DNA of 64,000 nucleotides, taken from NCBI RefSeq assembly GCF_026344005.1, contig NZ_JAPKNH010000001.1, positions 1 through 64,000 on the forward strand, given 5' to 3'. The translations under genes were made by a program, and so were the position numbers. Below are positions 18,158 to 64,000 of the stretch, in pieces. The notes beneath the pieces were generated by a model that did not search any database, had not been told where the DNA came from, and saw only the letters and a list, made by a program, of their open reading frames with translations. Within the stretch, counting starts at the first letter, position 1, and every line of letters begins with the position of its first letter. The DNA comes from Kaistia terrae (GTDB taxonomy: Bacteria > Pseudomonadota > Alphaproteobacteria > Rhizobiales > Kaistiaceae).

Positions 18158-19309
18158 CTAGAACAGGCTGAGCTGAGCGGGCTGATGCACAGGCGGGGAA
18201 AACAGGTCGGTGCGAAGCTTCAGATGACGCCGGTTGAGTTCGAGGCGCTGCGCCGCGATCTCGAAACGGCGACCGATCTGCCAGGCATAGGGGCCTTCGC
18301 CCTTCTGCCGCTTGCCGAACTCCGCGTCATAATCCTTGCCACCGCGCATGGAACGCAGCACCGAAAGAACGTGGCGGAAGCGGTCGGGATGGTGCCGCAG
18401 CAGCCATTCCTTGAAGATCTCGCTGACTTCGAGCGGCAGGCGCAGCAGCACATAACCGGCCTCCGTCGCGCCGGCGGCGGCAGCGGCGTCGAGGATGCGC
18501 TCGATCTCCGAATCATTCAGCGCCGGAATGACCGGAGCGACCAGAACCCCTACGGGAATGCCGGCGTCGGCCAGGCCGCGCACCGCGTCGAGCCGCCGCC
18601 CGGGCGTCGCCGCCCTCGGCTCCATCTCGCGCGCCAGCTTGCGGTCGAGCGTGGTAATCGAAAGCGCAACCTTGGCCAGGCCTCGCTCCGCCATGCGGCC
18701 GAGAATATCGATGTCGCGCAGCACCAGCGCCGACTTCGTGACGATGCCTACCGGATGGTTGAACCGCTCCAGCACTTCGAGGAGATCGCGCATCATGCGG
18801 TGCTGGCGTTCGATCGGCTGGTAGGGATCCGTATTGGTACCGATGGCGATCGTGCGCGGCTTGTAGTTTGGATCCGACAGCTCTTTCTCGAGCAGCTTGG
18901 CGGCGTCGGGCTTGTAGAAGAGCTTCGATTCGAAATCGAGCCCCGGCGACAGACCCATATAGGCGTGGGTCGGACGAGCGAAGCAGTACGAGCAGCCATG
19001 CTCGCAACCCCGATACGGATTGATCGAACGGTCGAAGGCGATATCCGGCGACTCGTTGCGCGTGATGATCGTCTTCGCCTTCTCCGGCATCACTTCCGTC
19101 TTGAACGGCGGCAATTCGTCCAGCGTCTGCCAGCCATCGTCGAACGGCATCGACTGGAAGCGCTCAAAGCGCCCAGAGCTGTTGCTCTGGGCGCCTCGTC
19201 CGCGTCGACGGTCAGGATCAATCGACGCGGCAAGAGCCTTATCCGCCGGCATGAGCAGCGGGTCGAGATGCGGCGGAAGGGAGCGAGCGAGCGACATGAA
19301 ACGACTCAT
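18158..19309 (-). CDS. Radical SAM protein, PA0069/SplB-like family
   Basis: The protein (383 aa) carries the radical SAM cluster motif C-x3-C-x2-C in RGCEHGCSYCFARPTHAYMGL, the sequence style of the PA0069 family related to spore photoproduct lyase. Downstream strands (IAIGTNTDPYQPIERQHRMMR) continue the TIM-barrel pattern. The physiological substrate is unknown. An ATG at 19309 is chosen; further starts at 19333 (TTG) and 19297 (ATG) are possible because none has a good ribosome site. A strong palindrome lies within its 5' coding region. Confidence 0.85.
   Translation of the reverse strand: MSRFMSLARSLPPHLDPLLMPADKALAASIDPDRRRGRGAQSNSSGRFERFQSMPFDDGWQTLDELPPFKTEVMPEKAKTIITRNESPDIAFDRSINPYRGCEHGCSYCFARPTHAYMGLSPGLDFESKLFYKPDAAKLLEKELSDPNYKPRTIAIGTNTDPYQPIERQHRMMRDLLEVLERFNHPVGIVTKSALVLRDIDILGRMAERGLAKVALSITTLDRKLAREMEPRAATPGRRLDAVRGLADAGIPVGVLVAPVIPALNDSEIERILDAAAAAGATEAGYVLLRLPLEVSEIFKEWLLRHHPDRFRHVLSVLRSMRGGKDYDAEFGKRQKGEGPYAWQIGRRFEIAAQRLELNRRHLKLRTDLFSPPVHQPAQLSLF
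19169..19194. repeat. Perfect palindrome inside the radical SAM gene
   Basis: GCGCCCAGAGC (19169-19179) and GCTCTGGGCGC (19184-19194) form an 11-bp stem with a 4-nt loop, about 40 codons into the gene. It encodes part of a low-complexity N-terminal region (GAQSNSSGR), before the conserved domain. Confidence 0.6.
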
Positions 19310-19409
19310 ACGCCCAAGTTGAGAACAAAACAAGAACGCTGCGCCTTGCGACGCAACGTCTCGGCGGATTCACCTCGCAGTTGCACAAAACTCGGCCTAA
19401 AGTCGCGGG

Positions 19410-59892: not shown

Positions 59893-60555
59893 ATGAACGC
59901 TCTTCGCCTTGCTACCCTGATCTCGGCTTCGGCCCTCGCCCTCGGCGTTACCGCTGCCCAGGCTGCTGATCTCACCTACGAGCCCGCTCCCGCTCCGATC
60001 GTCGAAGCTGCCCCGGCTGCCTTCAACTGGACCGGCTTCTACCTCGGCGTCCACGCTGGCGCAGCGCTGCTCGATGGCGACTACAATGACGTCGACTTCG
60101 GCGGCTTCAGCGGTGACAACACCGGCTTCATCGGTGGCGTCCAGGCTGGTTACAACTGGCAGTTCGACAACATCGTCATCGGCGCCCAGACCGACTTCGC
60201 CTACACCTCGGCCAAGATCTCGGACGACGCGTTCGGCGCCGAGAACAAGCTTGAGTGGCTCGGCAGCACGACCGCTCGCGTCGGTTATGCCTTCGACAAC
60301 TTCCTCGTCTACGGCAAGGGCGGTGTCGCTTACGGCCAGTCCAAGATCGACGACGCTGTCCTGTCCGTGAACGACTCGCAGTGGCACGTTGGTTGGACCG
60401 CTGGCGTCGGCGCTGAATACGCCTTCACCCAGAACATCACCGGCCTGCTCGAGTACAACTACGTTGACCTCGGCTCGCAGGATTACTTTAACGACGCCGT
60501 CAGCGCAGACCTGACGACCAACGTCATCAAGGCCGGCCTGAACTACAAGTTCTAA
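59893..60555 (+). CDS. Outer-membrane beta-barrel protein, paralogue 1
   Basis: A 220-residue precursor with a signal peptide (LATLISASALALGVTAAQA, then ADLTYEP) and an eight-strand-type beta-barrel of the Omp25/Omp31/OmpA-like OMP_b-brl group. It contains NWTGFYLGVHAGAA, GGVQAGYNWQFDNIVIGAQTDFAYTSAK and ends in GLNYKF; the terminal Phe is the BAM assembly signal. It starts with ATG, unlike the next three. A terminator follows within 50 bp, so it is probably monocistronic. Confidence 0.9.
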   Translation: MNALRLATLISASALALGVTAAQAADLTYEPAPAPIVEAAPAAFNWTGFYLGVHAGAALLDGDYNDVDFGGFSGDNTGFIGGVQAGYNWQFDNIVIGAQTDFAYTSAKISDDAFGAENKLEWLGSTTARVGYAFDNFLVYGKGGVAYGQSKIDDAVLSVNDSQWHVGWTAGVGAEYAFTQNITGLLEYNYVDLGSQDYFNDAVSADLTTNVIKAGLNYKF

Positions 60556-60579
60556 TCGGCTCTAGAGCACGAGTTGGAG

Positions 60580-60607
60580 AAGGCGGCCCATTGGGTCGCC
60601 TTTTTCG
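60580..60607 (+). terminator. Terminator of omp paralogue 1
   Basis: A GGCG-GCCC-AT-TGGGT-CGCC stem followed by TTTTTCGTTT. The same cassette end follows each of the four omp genes, with small changes. Confidence 0.85.
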
Positions 60608-60745
60608 TTTGGGACTTTGACGGAAACGGCGGAGCTCGGCGGTTTGCCGCGCCGATGTTCGGGCGCGGTGTGTGTCGTAGGGGCAACGGTATTCCAGCAG
60701 GGCTTCTGCTAGGGTCTTTGCAACAATAGATATGGAGTTCCCCCC

Positions 60746-61393
60746 GTGAACCTTCGTCTTTTCGCATTGGCTTCCGCTTCGGTCCTGGCGCTCGGCGTTG
60801 TCGGCGCCCAGGCAGCCGACCTGACCTACGAGCCCGCTCCCGTCGTCGAGGCGGCGCCGGCCGTCTTCAACTGGACCGGCTTCTATCTCGGCGTCCATGC
60901 CGGCGCTGCGCTGGTTGATGGCGACTACAGCTTTGACGGCTTCGGCTTCAGCGATGACAACACCGGCTTCATCGGTGGCGTCCAGGCCGGCTACAACTGG
61001 CAGTTCGACAACATCGTCATCGGTGCGCAGACGGACTTCGCCTACACCTCGGCCAAGCTTTCGGACGACGCGATCCCCGCCGAGAACAAGCTTGAGTGGC
61101 TCGGCAGCACGACGGCTCGCATCGGCTACGCCTTCGACAACTTCCTCGTCTACGGCAAGGGCGGTGTCGCTTACGGCCAGTCCAAGATCGACGATATCGA
61201 CTTCGCCAACGACTCGCAGTGGCATGTCGGTTGGACCGCTGGCGTCGGCGCTGAATACGCCTTCACCCAGAACCTCACCGGCCTTCTCGAGTACAACTAC
61301 GTCGACCTCGGCTCGCAGGATTACTTCGATGATTTCGTCAGCGCAGACCTGACGACCAACGTCATCAAGGCCGGCCTGAACTACAAGTTCTAA
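60746..61393 (+). CDS. Outer-membrane beta-barrel protein, paralogue 2
   Basis: The 215-residue paralogue begins with GTG behind the shared GGAGTTCCCCC leader. Signal peptide LFALASASVLALGVVGAQA and barrel strands correspond to paralogue 1. The main differences are in the surface-loop segments after GDY (SFDGFGFSDDN) and near the C-terminus (DFANDSQ). Long stretches in the middle of the gene are nearly identical to the neighbours at DNA level. Confidence 0.9.
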   Translation: MNLRLFALASASVLALGVVGAQAADLTYEPAPVVEAAPAVFNWTGFYLGVHAGAALVDGDYSFDGFGFSDDNTGFIGGVQAGYNWQFDNIVIGAQTDFAYTSAKLSDDAIPAENKLEWLGSTTARIGYAFDNFLVYGKGGVAYGQSKIDDIDFANDSQWHVGWTAGVGAEYAFTQNLTGLLEYNYVDLGSQDYFDDFVSADLTTNVIKAGLNYKF

Positions 61394-61417
61394 TCGGCTT
61401 CGAAGTACGGTTTGGAG

Positions 61418-61444
61418 AAGGCGGCCCGTCGGGTCGCCTTTTTC
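61418..61444 (+). terminator. Terminator of omp paralogue 2
   Basis: AAGGCGGCCC-GTC-GGGTCGCCTT stem followed by TTTCG, matching the other omp terminators. Confidence 0.85.
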
Positions 61445-61593
61445 GTTTCGGGCTCCGACGAAGAGGGGGGCTGAGGTTTTGCCGTCCCGATGAGCGGACG
61501 CTCCGATTCAGACTTCGGGTGTGTCGTTCGAGCCACGGTATTTCATCCGGACGTCTGCTAAGAGTCCCATAGCATTTGATATGGAGTTCCCCC

Positions 61594-62250
61594 GTGAACA
61601 TTCGTCTTTTCGCACTGGCTTCCGCTTCGGTCCTGGCTCTCGGCGTCGTCGGCGCCCAGGCAGCTGACCTGACCTACGAACCCGCTCCCGTCGTCGAGGC
61701 AGCACCGGCTGCCTTCAACTGGACCGGCTTCTACCTCGGCGTGCACGCCGGCGCCGCGCTGTTCGATGGCGACTACAACTACGGCGGCTACCAGCCGAGC
61801 GACGACAACACCGGCTTCATCGGTGGCGTCCAGGCTGGCTACAACTGGCAGTTCGACAACATCGTTATCGGCGCCCAGACCGACTTCGCCTACACCTCGG
61901 CCAAGATCTCGGACGACTTTGTCGGCGCCGAGAACAAGCTGAACTGGCTCGGCAGCACGACCGCTCGCGTCGGTTATGCGTTCGACAACCTGCTCGTCTA
62001 CGGCAAGGGCGGTGTCGCTTACGGTCAGTCGAAGATCGAGACCGTCGGCTTCGGCGACGATTCGCAGTGGCATGTCGGCTGGACCGCTGGCGTCGGCGCT
62101 GAATACGCCTTCACCCAGAACATCACCGGCCTGCTCGAGTACAACTACGTCGACCTCGGCTCGCAGGATTACAGCTTCGCAGGCAATAACGCTGCCAGCG
62201 CGGACCTGACGACCAACGTCATCAAGGCCGGCCTGAACTACAAGTTCTAA
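61594..62250 (+). CDS. Outer-membrane beta-barrel protein, paralogue 3
   Basis: A 218-residue precursor starting with GTG at 61594, GGAG 8 bp upstream. The signal peptide and the first strands are almost identical to paralogue 2. Variable segments are NYGGYQPSDDN and SFAGNNAASAD. A candidate ATG 6 codons upstream is ruled out because the Shine-Dalgarno sequence lies after it. Confidence 0.9.
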   Translation: MNIRLFALASASVLALGVVGAQAADLTYEPAPVVEAAPAAFNWTGFYLGVHAGAALFDGDYNYGGYQPSDDNTGFIGGVQAGYNWQFDNIVIGAQTDFAYTSAKISDDFVGAENKLNWLGSTTARVGYAFDNLLVYGKGGVAYGQSKIETVGFGDDSQWHVGWTAGVGAEYAFTQNITGLLEYNYVDLGSQDYSFAGNNAASADLTTNVIKAGLNYKF

Positions 62251-62274
62251 TCGGCTCCAAGGCACGATTTGGAA

Positions 62275-62303
62275 AAGGCGGCCCATCGGGCCGCCTTTTT
62301 TCG
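62275..62303 (+). terminator. Terminator of omp paralogue 3
   Basis: AAGGCGGCCC-ATC-GGGCCGCCTT, a perfect 10-bp stem, then TTTTCG. Confidence 0.9.
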
Positions 62304-62458
62304 TTTTGGGCCTCCGGCGGTGACGGCGGACCTCCGCGGCTCCGCCGTGCTGACGAGCGCTCAGTCTCTCCGTTCGCGCTATTGGTGTGTCCCCTGAGCA
62401 ACGGTATTTCCGTCGGACCTCTGCTAGAACTGCCTTAGCAATTCATATGGAGTTCCCC

Positions 62459-63139
62459 GTGAACATTCGTCTTTTCGCACTGGCTTCCGCTTCGGTCCTG
62501 GCGCTCGGCGTCGTCGGCGCCCAGGCTGCTGATCTGACCTATGAGGCTGCTCCCGTCGCTGCGGCTCCGGCTGCCTTCAACTGGACCGGCTTCTACCTCG
62601 GCGTGCATGCCGGCGCAGCGATCACCGATTTCGAGTTCAGCTCGCCGCAGAACCTCGGCCCGGACTTCAGCGACAACAACACCGGCTTCCTCGGTGGCGT
62701 CCAGGCTGGCTACAACTGGCAGTTCGACAACATCGTCGTCGGCCTCCAGACCGACTTCGCCTACACCTCGGCAAAGGTATCGCTCGGCGACATCGGCGCG
62801 GGCGAAGTCGAGCAGAAGCTCGAATGGCTCGGTAGCACGACGGCTCGCATCGGCTATGCCTTCGATAACCTGCTTGTCTACGGCAAGGGCGGTGTCGCTT
62901 ACGGCCAGTCCAAGTTTGAACTCCCCGTCGGCGGTGGCCTCTCGCTGCAGGATTCGCAGTGGCACACCGGTTGGACGGCTGGCGTCGGCGCCGAATACGC
63001 CTTCACCCAGAACCTCACTGGCCTGATCGAGTATAACTACGTCGACCTCGGCTCGCAGGACTACAACTTCCTGTTTGCCAATGCCGACGTCGACCTGACC
63101 AGCAACGTCATCAAGGCCGGCCTGAACTACAAGTTCTGA
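62459..63139 (+). CDS. Outer-membrane beta-barrel protein, paralogue 4
   Basis: The 226-residue precursor starts with GTG at 62459. It is the most divergent copy: longer loops (FEFSSPQNLGPDFSDNN, VSLGDIGAGEVEQ, FELPVGGGLSLQDSQ) but the same strands and GLNYKF end. Here the shared leader has lost a C, so the leader ATG at 62447 falls in frame (MEFPVNIRLF). Initiation at GTG is still favoured by analogy with copies 2 and 3. Confidence 0.9.
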   Translation: MNIRLFALASASVLALGVVGAQAADLTYEAAPVAAAPAAFNWTGFYLGVHAGAAITDFEFSSPQNLGPDFSDNNTGFLGGVQAGYNWQFDNIVVGLQTDFAYTSAKVSLGDIGAGEVEQKLEWLGSTTARIGYAFDNLLVYGKGGVAYGQSKFELPVGGGLSLQDSQWHTGWTAGVGAEYAFTQNLTGLIEYNYVDLGSQDYNFLFANADVDLTSNVIKAGLNYKF

Positions 63140-63265: not shown

Positions 63266-63370
63266 TCAGGTTGGCGGGACCGGGATGCCGCTGATGGTCA
63301 GCGTTGCTGCGGCAGCCTGCTGCAGCAAGGCGGCCTTCACGAGTGCCGGCTTCTCATAGGTCTTCTTCAT
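63266..63370 (-). CDS. 34-residue RiPP-precursor-like peptide
   Basis: The peptide begins MKKTYEKPALVK and ends TISGIPVPPT. The N-terminal Y-x-x-P-x-L is the leader motif recognised by RRE domains in lasso-peptide and related RiPP systems, and similar MKKTY-x-KP-x-LVK peptides in alphaproteobacteria are annotated as putative RiPP precursors. GGGGAA stands 6 bp before the ATG at 63370. The candidate core has no Asp or Glu, so it cannot form a classical lasso ring. No modification enzyme is in the window; the next gene is a GntR regulator. The frame is open upstream to 63535, but that part has no ribosome site. Confidence 0.6.
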   Translation of the reverse strand: MKKTYEKPALVKAALLQQAAAATLTISGIPVPPT

Positions 63371-63585
63371 CGTATTCCCCGTATGATTGCGTATGACGCA
63401 GCGTATTGTGGCATTGGCCCAACCTTGCCGTCGAGGGTACCGGCGCAACACACCCAGGCTATCCACGGTTGCTCCAGGGGAGATCGAAGGCGGAAACGCG
63501 TTGTCCTTGACCGGCGCCGAGCCCTTGCCTGCCAACGGATGCCGGATTTTGCGTGAAAAGGTTGCTCGCCAAGCCGTGCAACAGT

Positions 63586-63609
63586 ATCCCTCTTGTCGAC
63601 AAGAGGGAT
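63586..63609. promoter_or_regulatory. Perfect 24-bp palindrome before gntR gene
   Basis: Half-sites ATCCCTCTTGTC and GACAAGAGGGAT meet without a spacer. The centre TTGTCGACAA fits the T-x-GT-x3-AC-x-A operator pattern of FadR/FCD-type GntR proteins. It ends 6 bp before the start codon and overlaps the ribosome site, so autorepression is likely. Confidence 0.75.
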
Positions 63610-63615
63610 GTTGAG

Positions 63616-64000
63616 ATGACGAAAAAGCCAGAGGTCAGCCGATCCACGGAGCGCAAGCGCGGTTCGGGCGTGAAAATGGTTTACGATCTGCTGCGCGACG
63701 AGATCCTTGATCTCGTCCTTTCTCCCGGCAGTCCGATCGATGAGGTCCAGCTCGCGGAACGGTTCAACATGTCCCGGACCCCGATCCGGGAGGCCCTGGT
63801 GCGGCTCGCGGGGGAGGGGCTGATCCAAACCCTTCCCAATCGCTCGACCATGGTGTCGAACATCGATTATCTCAACGTCTCGCCCTATTTCGACGCCATG
63901 GTATTGATGTACCGCGCAACGACGAGGTTGGCGGCGGAGAACCATCGCGAGTCGGATCTGGCGGCGATCCGCGGCCACCAGGCGGCGTTCGCGGCGGCGG
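63616..64000 (+). CDS. GntR-family transcriptional regulator, 3' end outside window
   Basis: The first 128 residues are visible. A basic N-terminus is followed by the winged HTH (VYDLLRDEILDLVLSPGSPIDEVQLAERFNMSRTPIREALVRLAGEGLIQTLPNRSTMV), typical of the FadR/FCD branch. An effector domain begins (YFDAMVLMYRATTRLAAENH) and runs off the window. FCD-type members sense small organic acids or similar ligands. It is divergent from the small peptide gene, 245 bp away. Confidence 0.88.
   Translation, partial: MTKKPEVSRSTERKRGSGVKMVYDLLRDEILDLVLSPGSPIDEVQLAERFNMSRTPIREALVRLAGEGLIQTLPNRSTMVSNIDYLNVSPYFDAMVLMYRATTRLAAENHRESDLAAIRGHQAAFAAA

Follow-up and report, generated by a model that had tools for sequence, protein, structure and literature searches.

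A 34-residue reading frame near the end of a 64,000-nucleotide stretch of Kaistia terrae DNA (the window; positions 1-64000 of contig C1, which is 1.13 Mb long in a genome of 5.59 Mb) is probably the precursor gene of a linear phosphorylated RiPP. Judged from sequence, it would be one of several scattered precursors that are matured in trans by a single lasso-like cassette without a cyclase. The genome contains five precursor genes with a shared leader and variable, Ser-containing cores, together with RRE, B2 peptidase, kinase and nucleotidyltransferase genes with their catalytic motifs and without a cyclase, and precursors and cassette occur together across related genomes (Table 1).

The earlier note on this DNA had read the frame as a RiPP-type precursor with a YxxPxL leader and a ribosome site, and this reading of the gene stands. 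The frame is intact, follows a ribosome-binding sequence, has paralogues in the genome, and is the sole match to the full family leader pattern among the 537 ORFs of 20-90 aa in the window, an illustrative count, the pattern having been derived from the family itself; the loose YxxPxL motif close to an M occurs in 2 of the 537. The peptide, whose N-terminal start is MKKTYEKPALVK, carries all the anchor residues Tyr, Pro, Leu, Lys and Ala as well as the Ser, which is located at core position 6, position 5 being commoner in relatives. Near the end of the leader it has QQAAAA instead of the I-A-A of most relatives in the genus. No Asp or Glu is present in the core ATLTISGIPVPPT after the predicted cut; the acidic residue of a lasso ring is lacking, as had been noted, and the peptide is not a lasso precursor. 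The window peptide had no match in the plasmid collection, and tRNA and Rfam scans of the whole window found nothing.

Table 1. Positions of the window features and of the remote cassette on contig C1
Feature	Position	Strand	Remarks
Precursor peptide gene	63266-63370	minus	ATG at 63370, TGA ending at 63266; 34 aa + stop
Window-peptide leader	residues 1-21		YEKPAL at residues 5-10 (-17 to -12); predicted cut after Ala21
Window-peptide core	residues 22-34		ATLTISGIPVPPT; candidate phospho-acceptor Ser27
Ribosome-binding region	63371-63390	minus	GGGGAA at 63375-63380, 4 nt 5' of the ATG
GntR-family regulator gene start	63553-64000	plus	likely ATG at 63616; PF00392, 63.6 bits; divergent from the peptide gene
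Radical SAM gene	18158-19333	minus	PA0069 family; NF033668, 577 bits; 44 kb from the peptide
Putative HprK-like kinase	C1:496572-497675	minus	start uncertain
B2 leader peptidase	C1:497579-498010	minus	NF033537, 52.8 bits (cut-off 33); PF13471, 46 bits (cut-off 26)
Discrete RRE/PqqD	C1:498007-498300	minus	PF05402, 38.5 bits, above cut-off
Linked precursor	C1:498440-498553	plus	member of the five-member family of this genome
NTP_transf_5 nucleotidyltransferase	C1:498644-499750	plus	PF14907, 94 bits, above the curated cut-off

Used alone as a query, the window peptide finds its best paralogue in the same genome at E 6e-7, plus two weaker matches, and a fifth precursor was found next to the B2 gene. 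A profile of the five recovers them at E 1e-19 to 9e-14 (4e-17 for the window peptide), with the next match at E 0.12; these five built the profile, and the informative part is the gap and not the E-value. The five genes occupy five sites (C1:63 kb in the window, C1:498 kb, and the contigs C23, C32 and C35) and share the leader [KR]-[KR]-x-Y-E-[KR]-P-x-[LI]-x-K...A, followed by variable, Ser-containing tails with predicted cores of 9-13 aa. All of 50 precursors of the genus have the Tyr, the Pro and the Ala at Tyr+16, and 48 have the Lys at Tyr+7. Ser is found in all 50 cores, at core position 5 in 32 of them, and in 49 of 50 rows of a mixed set, which overlaps in part with the genus set. Positions -2 and -1 are occupied by AA, TA or VA in 99 of the 102 rows aligned (two alignments have rows in common, which were counted twice). 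In the genus precursors, pN/pS is 0.50 for the leader (all pairs) and 1.13 for the core (208 equal-length pairs), values from saturated paralogue comparisons of which only the leader-core contrast counts. A want of homologues with a conserved leader and a variable core had been named beforehand as one finding that would refute the RiPP reading; such homologues are abundant, and the reading is not refuted.

A cut after the invariant Ala places Tyr, Pro and Leu at -17, -14 and -12. The same register, Y(-17), P(-14) and L(-12), is described for BsfA, whose kinase acts on an internal core Ser, faster with the help of its RRE (PMC10368454). The conserved residues of the leader coincide with the RRE-binding anchors at the BsfA register. 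An RBS-like sequence precedes 46 of the 50 genus precursors. The motif CGTCAAC lies upstream of 10 of the 21 precursors located outside multi-copy arrays and the cassette (0.2 expected), which could reflect co-regulation or, equally well, common ancestry of the copies; upstream of the window precursor there is only the similar GCGTCATACG. NCBIfam searches with 52 precursors gave no match better than E 0.016: 19 of them matched lasso_cyano, with E-values of 0.016 and above, and there were two single stray matches besides. A Mesorhizobium precursor had no match in plasmid or phage collections. Several Mesorhizobium cores end in a collagen-like S-G-P-x-G-P-x-G tail (L209, L230, L238 and L251).

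A search of the genome with PF13471, the lasso B2 family, gave a single match at C1:497.6 kb, on the same contig as the window peptide and ~434 kb from it. The match belongs to a cassette spanning C1:496572-499750 (locus L013, C1:488000-507900), and a Crp-type regulator gene comes next after the NTP_transf_5 gene. The description of the window peptide as an orphan is right locally, no maturation gene being nearby, but wrong for the genome, which has four sister precursors and this cassette of RRE, B2, kinase and nucleotidyltransferase. With these genes, a product class can be proposed for the peptide. The recommended search past position 64000 did yield an RRE/PqqD gene, at C1:498 kb; on the side of the asparagine synthetases it met three PF00733 matches, none of them a lasso cyclase.

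The cassette kinase scores below the curated cut-offs, with 25.3 against 200 bits for TIGR04352 and 12.7 against 33.3 bits for PF07475. His134, Gly154, Gly156, Lys157, Asp174 and Asp175 are invariant in all 33 aligned relatives, a motif that resembles the one given for lasso-peptide kinases in the portions of the two reports consulted (PMC10368454, PMC9266682). Compared with solved structures, the kinase profile matches HPr kinases at E 5e-5. The predicted model has a mean pLDDT of 91.9, and the 50 Foldseek matches listed for it are all PEPCK, with TM to the query of 0.41-0.52 and no HPr kinase among them. Such a PEPCK-like fold is consistent with a PEPCK/HprK superfamily. Given the motif, the sub-cut-off profile matches and the HPr kinase matches in the PDB, we regard the enzyme as a putative HprK-like kinase. 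One ABC query model found no exporter in the 20 kb around the cassette of this genome, and in most Mesorhizobium loci the ABC matches lie several kb beyond the cassette. A Mesorhizobium B2 used as query had no match in the plasmid collection. A supposedly lost Asp in B2, at residue 12 after the His, was dropped as a candidate feature; the lasso B2 controls likewise have no Asp there.

With these enzymes, a four-step route can be proposed. The discrete RRE would bind YEKPAL at -17 to -12 and present the precursor to the HprK-like kinase, which would phosphorylate the conserved core Ser (Ser27 in the window peptide). The NTP_transf_5 enzyme may extend the phosphate with a hexose or a nucleotide, and the B2 Cys/His peptidase would cut after the invariant Ala21 to give a linear 13-residue core. 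We infer every one of these chemical steps, like the action in trans and any biological role, from gene content and conservation.

The three PF00733 matches are the only ones in the genome (22-27 bits) and correspond to MnmA, NAD+ synthase and argininosuccinate synthase; the genome thus has no recognisable lasso cyclase. Nothing above 29 bits was found with PF00733 in the relatives G017, G018, G022 and G024, and in G006, G027 and G014 a long match is located on another contig (199, 187 and 375 bits, respectively), where a cyclase in trans is possible. Among the features of lasso systems, a discrete RRE and a B2 protein are present here, but the cyclase and the Asp/Glu acceptor at core positions 7-9 are both absent; as neither of these two defining features is found, the product is not a lasso peptide. 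A lasso precursor served by a cyclase acting in trans would share the leader motif, B2, discrete RRE, kinase and nucleotidyltransferase with phosphorylated lasso clusters, as far as these are described in PMC9266682. Such an assignment is barely conceivable, however, and we reject it for this genome, where no PF00733 match is a lasso cyclase; in addition, only 9 of 52 aligned cores have an Asp or Glu at positions 7-9, and the wider B2 family, described below, separates from lasso systems both by its flanks and in its tree.

Scanning the contig collection with cyclase-free B2 sequences, we kept the best 80 of 91 relatives, 64 of which are labelled Mesorhizobium; the rest include two Kaistia, two Ancylobacter, Hoeflea, Aquibium, an Ancalomicrobiaceae MAG, Candidatus Sedimenticola and a MAG labelled Phycisphaera. 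A cyclase flanks none of these 80 cassette loci (one cyclase model; up to 10 kb a side, some flanks cut by contig ends). By the first classification, all four enzymes are present in 78 of the 80 loci. By best match per locus, RRE, B2 and kinase are present in 98 of 98 loci and the transferase in 97, the 98 loci being 18 + 80 from two sets, some from the same genome (L183 = G017, L184 = G014), and not 98 genomes. A tree of 34 B2 proteins has a branch (99/100) with the 22 from cyclase-free loci on one side, and 12 others, 11 from cyclase-bearing loci and one from the unclassified L158, lie on the opposite, long-branched side. In five Mesorhizobium genomes there are two B2 genes, spaced 12-29 kb apart, and in the three genomes inspected on both sides the second gene (G159, G229 and G248; loci L147-L150, L170 and L171) belongs to a true lasso cluster with the leader EYETPSL. 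A lasso cluster and a cyclase-free cassette at such a distance make RRE discrimination testable in a natural setting, as in the LPP/paeninodin pairs of Bacillota.

Precursors and cassette occur in the same genomes. In the family sample of 28 genomes, precursors were found in 7 and B2 in 9. In the genus sample of 14, both occur in the same six genomes and in none of the other eight (Fisher 1/3003), the six having 5, 11, 9, 15, 6 and 6 precursor copies. In the order sample of 397 genomes, the precursor profile matched 15 and B2 26, with an overlap of 14 (the best <=20 and best <=10 candidates per genome were scored in the order-level searches, and the best <=26 in one Mesorhizobium search). Of these 26 B2 genomes, 17 were classed as having a cyclase-free cassette and 14 of the 17 have precursor matches. 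The remaining nine, of which eight have a cyclase and one is unclassified, have no precursor match. The three cassettes without a profile match are those of G102, G182 and G298; linked precursor-like frames are present in G102 and G298, and there is none within the 12 kb examined in G182. G183 has a weak match, at E 1.9e-4, for which no small ORF was recovered, and the match in G384 (E 5.5e-4, partial, inside a 288-aa frame) we think false, though it is kept in the 15.

The pattern is most extensive in Mesorhizobium, a genus known for legume symbionts. Among its 146 genomes, a cyclase-free B2 is present in 97, in one copy each, and precursors in 101. All 97 cassette-bearing genomes have precursors (3-27 each, median 8, total 875), compared with 4 of the 49 without B2, which have 1-2 (one only at E 2.8e-5); here as in the other samples, regular-expression frames without leader context were not taken as precursors. 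The Fisher value is 2e-33, and like the other co-occurrence p-values it ignores shared ancestry, genomes of one clade not being independent. The four cassette-less genomes with 1-2 precursor matches are G422, G423, G515 and G531, and their precursors are possibly relics after cassette loss. The peptides might instead be short unmodified proteins, for instance regulators or peptides of the envelope, with an N-terminal motif in common and only an indirect link to the cassette, such as clade co-inheritance. The peptides have no known product, the contexts of the precursors are varied, some being next to phage-like genes, and the tests ignore phylogeny, all of which would suit that explanation; we consider it improbable nonetheless. 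Most of the precursor genes are unlinked to the cassette, yet they accompany it in 97 of 97 and in 6 of 6 genomes and are nearly absent elsewhere, in two genera of different families, and the residues that are conserved match the RRE-binding anchors at the register reported for BsfA. Co-occurrence would not of itself prove that the cassette of this genome acts on the window peptide.

The physical separation of most precursors from the enzymes is consistent with action in trans. In 13 of 14 single-contig Mesorhizobium genomes represented among the matches listed, the precursors listed lie 0.65-3.1 Mb from B2, and in the fourteenth, G448, a precursor among the matches listed lies ~1 kb from it. 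In G024, the linked precursor is broken (L064, 10500-10850), the enzyme genes of the cassette are intact, and a remote array of six precursors has been preserved as well, which is what a cassette acting in trans on distant genes would lead one to expect. Such an array site consists of an FGGY kinase gene, the precursors and an adenine-deaminase-like gene (names by eye) and is kept in all six cassette-bearing genus genomes, with 1, 5, 6, 5, 4 and 4 copies. In the cassette-less G020, the two flanking genes are ~350 bp apart and no precursor was found between them. Five other cassette-free genus genomes have the deaminase, with no FGGY match within 1.5 kb, and two gave no deaminase match.

Decay of a precursor, as seen in G024, raises the question of whether the window gene is itself a relic, a once-functional copy that is no longer expressed or recognised. 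Its QQAAAA departs from most relatives in the genus and it lacks the upstream CGTCAAC, yet the frame, the RBS, all the anchors and the Ser are preserved, the profile, itself built in part from this peptide, recovers it at E 4e-17, and two more genomes of the genus have precursors next to similar flanking genes. We therefore hold a relic to be unlikely, if the least so of the alternatives, and continue to favour a functional precursor matured in trans.

On one side of the window precursor is the last gene in a row of four similar outer-membrane beta-barrel genes, and on the other is the divergent GntR gene, 3' of which a DapA-like gene lies beyond the window. The adjacency to GntR that had been pointed out earlier is real and probably incidental, the regulator gene probably being no part of the precursor system. 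A perfect 24-bp palindrome (63586-63609) is located directly before the likely GntR start, more than 200 bp from the peptide start, and is possibly the GntR operator. Control of the peptide by this regulator, or a joint function with it and the DapA-like gene, is recommended by genome G018 of the same genus, where a precursor adjoins GntR-like (59% identity) and DapA-like (79%) genes. That arrangement is nevertheless highly improbable as an explanation, in view of the position of the palindrome and of the other four precursors of this genome, near which there is no GntR relative at E 1e-20; with the window GntR protein as query, G018 supplied the only other GntR-flanked precursor among the loci compared.

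A Pfam scan at E 1e-5 of 58 of the 59 predicted genes in the window and three other ORFs gave no PqqD, B2, HprK-like, Asn-synthase or YcaO match, and no ATP-grasp match beyond the ATP-binding domain of pyruvate phosphate dikinase. The statement that the window holds no maturation enzyme is borne out for these families and needs amending for one radical SAM gene 44 kb from the peptide, thought irrelevant, which is the sole gene noticed in the window from a superfamily that includes RiPP maturases. This gene was rejected as a maturase: it belongs to the PA0069 family, whose function is unproven, and shows no sign of a link to the peptide. The four tandem beta-barrel genes (59893-63139) carry PF13505 in all three that were scanned, and two adjacent copies are 82% identical across ~530 bp.

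Several known systems resemble the one described here, with differences in enzymes and layout. The HPr-rel-A system, in which the TIGR04352 kinase has a PqqD-family partner, also uses an HprK-related kinase; however, the cassette kinase reaches 25.3 bits, under the 200-bit TIGR04352 cut-off, and B2 is present here. In prochlorosin-type lanthipeptide systems, one enzyme set acts on many shared-leader precursors, some of them unlinked. The one-to-many layout is the same in our case, but with lasso-like enzymes and with phosphorylation as the predicted chemistry. With regard to RiPPs in general, a conserved leader, a variable core and dedicated enzymes are seen here in the pN/pS contrast and the co-occurrence with the cassette, and the modification is a predicted one.

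The closest known system is that of the Linear Polyphosphorylated Peptides (LPPs) of Bacillota (PMC13381572, Nat Commun 2026). In the sections of that paper used here, LPP clusters have a discrete RRE, an HprK-like kinase, an NTP transferase, no macrolactam cyclase, a YxxPx leader and variable C-termini, all as in the present system, and they often lie near a lasso cluster, as does the cassette in several Mesorhizobium genomes. The kinase LppK phosphorylates a core Ser (Ser3) and the LPP product is linear (PMC13381572). According to the same sections, LPPs use a SipW-like signal peptidase, LppS, instead of the lasso-type B2 Cys/His peptidase; an MsbA-like exporter, for which we found no counterpart in the cassette; one to three precursor frames per cluster instead of precursors scattered genome-wide; and a core of 45 aa in the tested case instead of the predicted 9-13 aa of this genome. 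They are also described as restricted to Bacillota, in contrast to the Alphaproteobacteria here (PMC13381572). The set of RRE, HprK kinase and NTP transferase without a cyclase is present, and one ABC query model found no MsbA-like exporter in the cluster. With no exporter found and B2 standing in the place of the SpI peptidase, the system appears LPP-like in logic and is not filed as an LPP. For the third step of the route, the available accounts report that PsmN adds a hexose to phospho-Ser (PMC9266682) and that LppN had no activity in its test host (PMC13381572).

The phosphorylated lasso peptides paeninodin, pseudomycoidin and Bsf, as far as described in the reports consulted, share with our system the RRE (B1), B2, an HprK-like kinase, often a nucleotidyltransferase, the YxxPxL register and Ser phosphorylation, the last only predicted here (PMC9266682, PMC10368454). 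In contrast to them, the system described here has no cyclase, no ring acceptor in the window peptide and no ABC exporter in the cassette, its B2 lies on a separate branch, and most of its precursors are outside the cluster. In the open-licence literature, searched by titles and abstract openings, we found no paper on scattered precursors, or on a B2 cassette without a cyclase, in Mesorhizobium or Kaistia.

A broader proposal, for and against which we see equal weight, is that these genes form a distinct alphaproteobacterial RiPP family, common in Mesorhizobium, in which one cyclase-free RRE-B2-HprK-NTase cassette processes 3-27 scattered precursors to short linear phosphopeptides, perhaps glyco- or nucleotidyl-phosphopeptides, each expressed from its own site. 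The cassette would then be in effect a general peptide-processing channel, perhaps for signalling, and not a single-product cluster. Should the mechanism prove right, an uncharacterised family of small phosphopeptides would be made by 97 of the 146 Mesorhizobium genomes examined, and cyclase-free phosphopeptide RiPPs would extend beyond Bacillota with a different leader peptidase. The precursors are easily missed because most of the located ones are far from the enzymes, none of the 52 scanned has an NCBIfam match better than E 0.016 and the cassette has no cyclase; cluster-based RiPP mining, which seeks precursors beside enzymes, would miss many of them.

Two further arrangements were observed among the precursor loci. 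Some scattered precursors lie beside phage-like genes (L078, 4189-5058; L010, 9393-10282), including an endolysin (phrog_7, E 3e-59), phrog_6034 proteins and an integrase-like fragment (by eye), and prophages may carry or scatter precursors. In G298, six tandem precursor-like frames lie directly 5' of the RRE gene (L156, 6735-8113), each with [IV]T[AS] followed by a short Ser-containing core, a clustered form of the same system.
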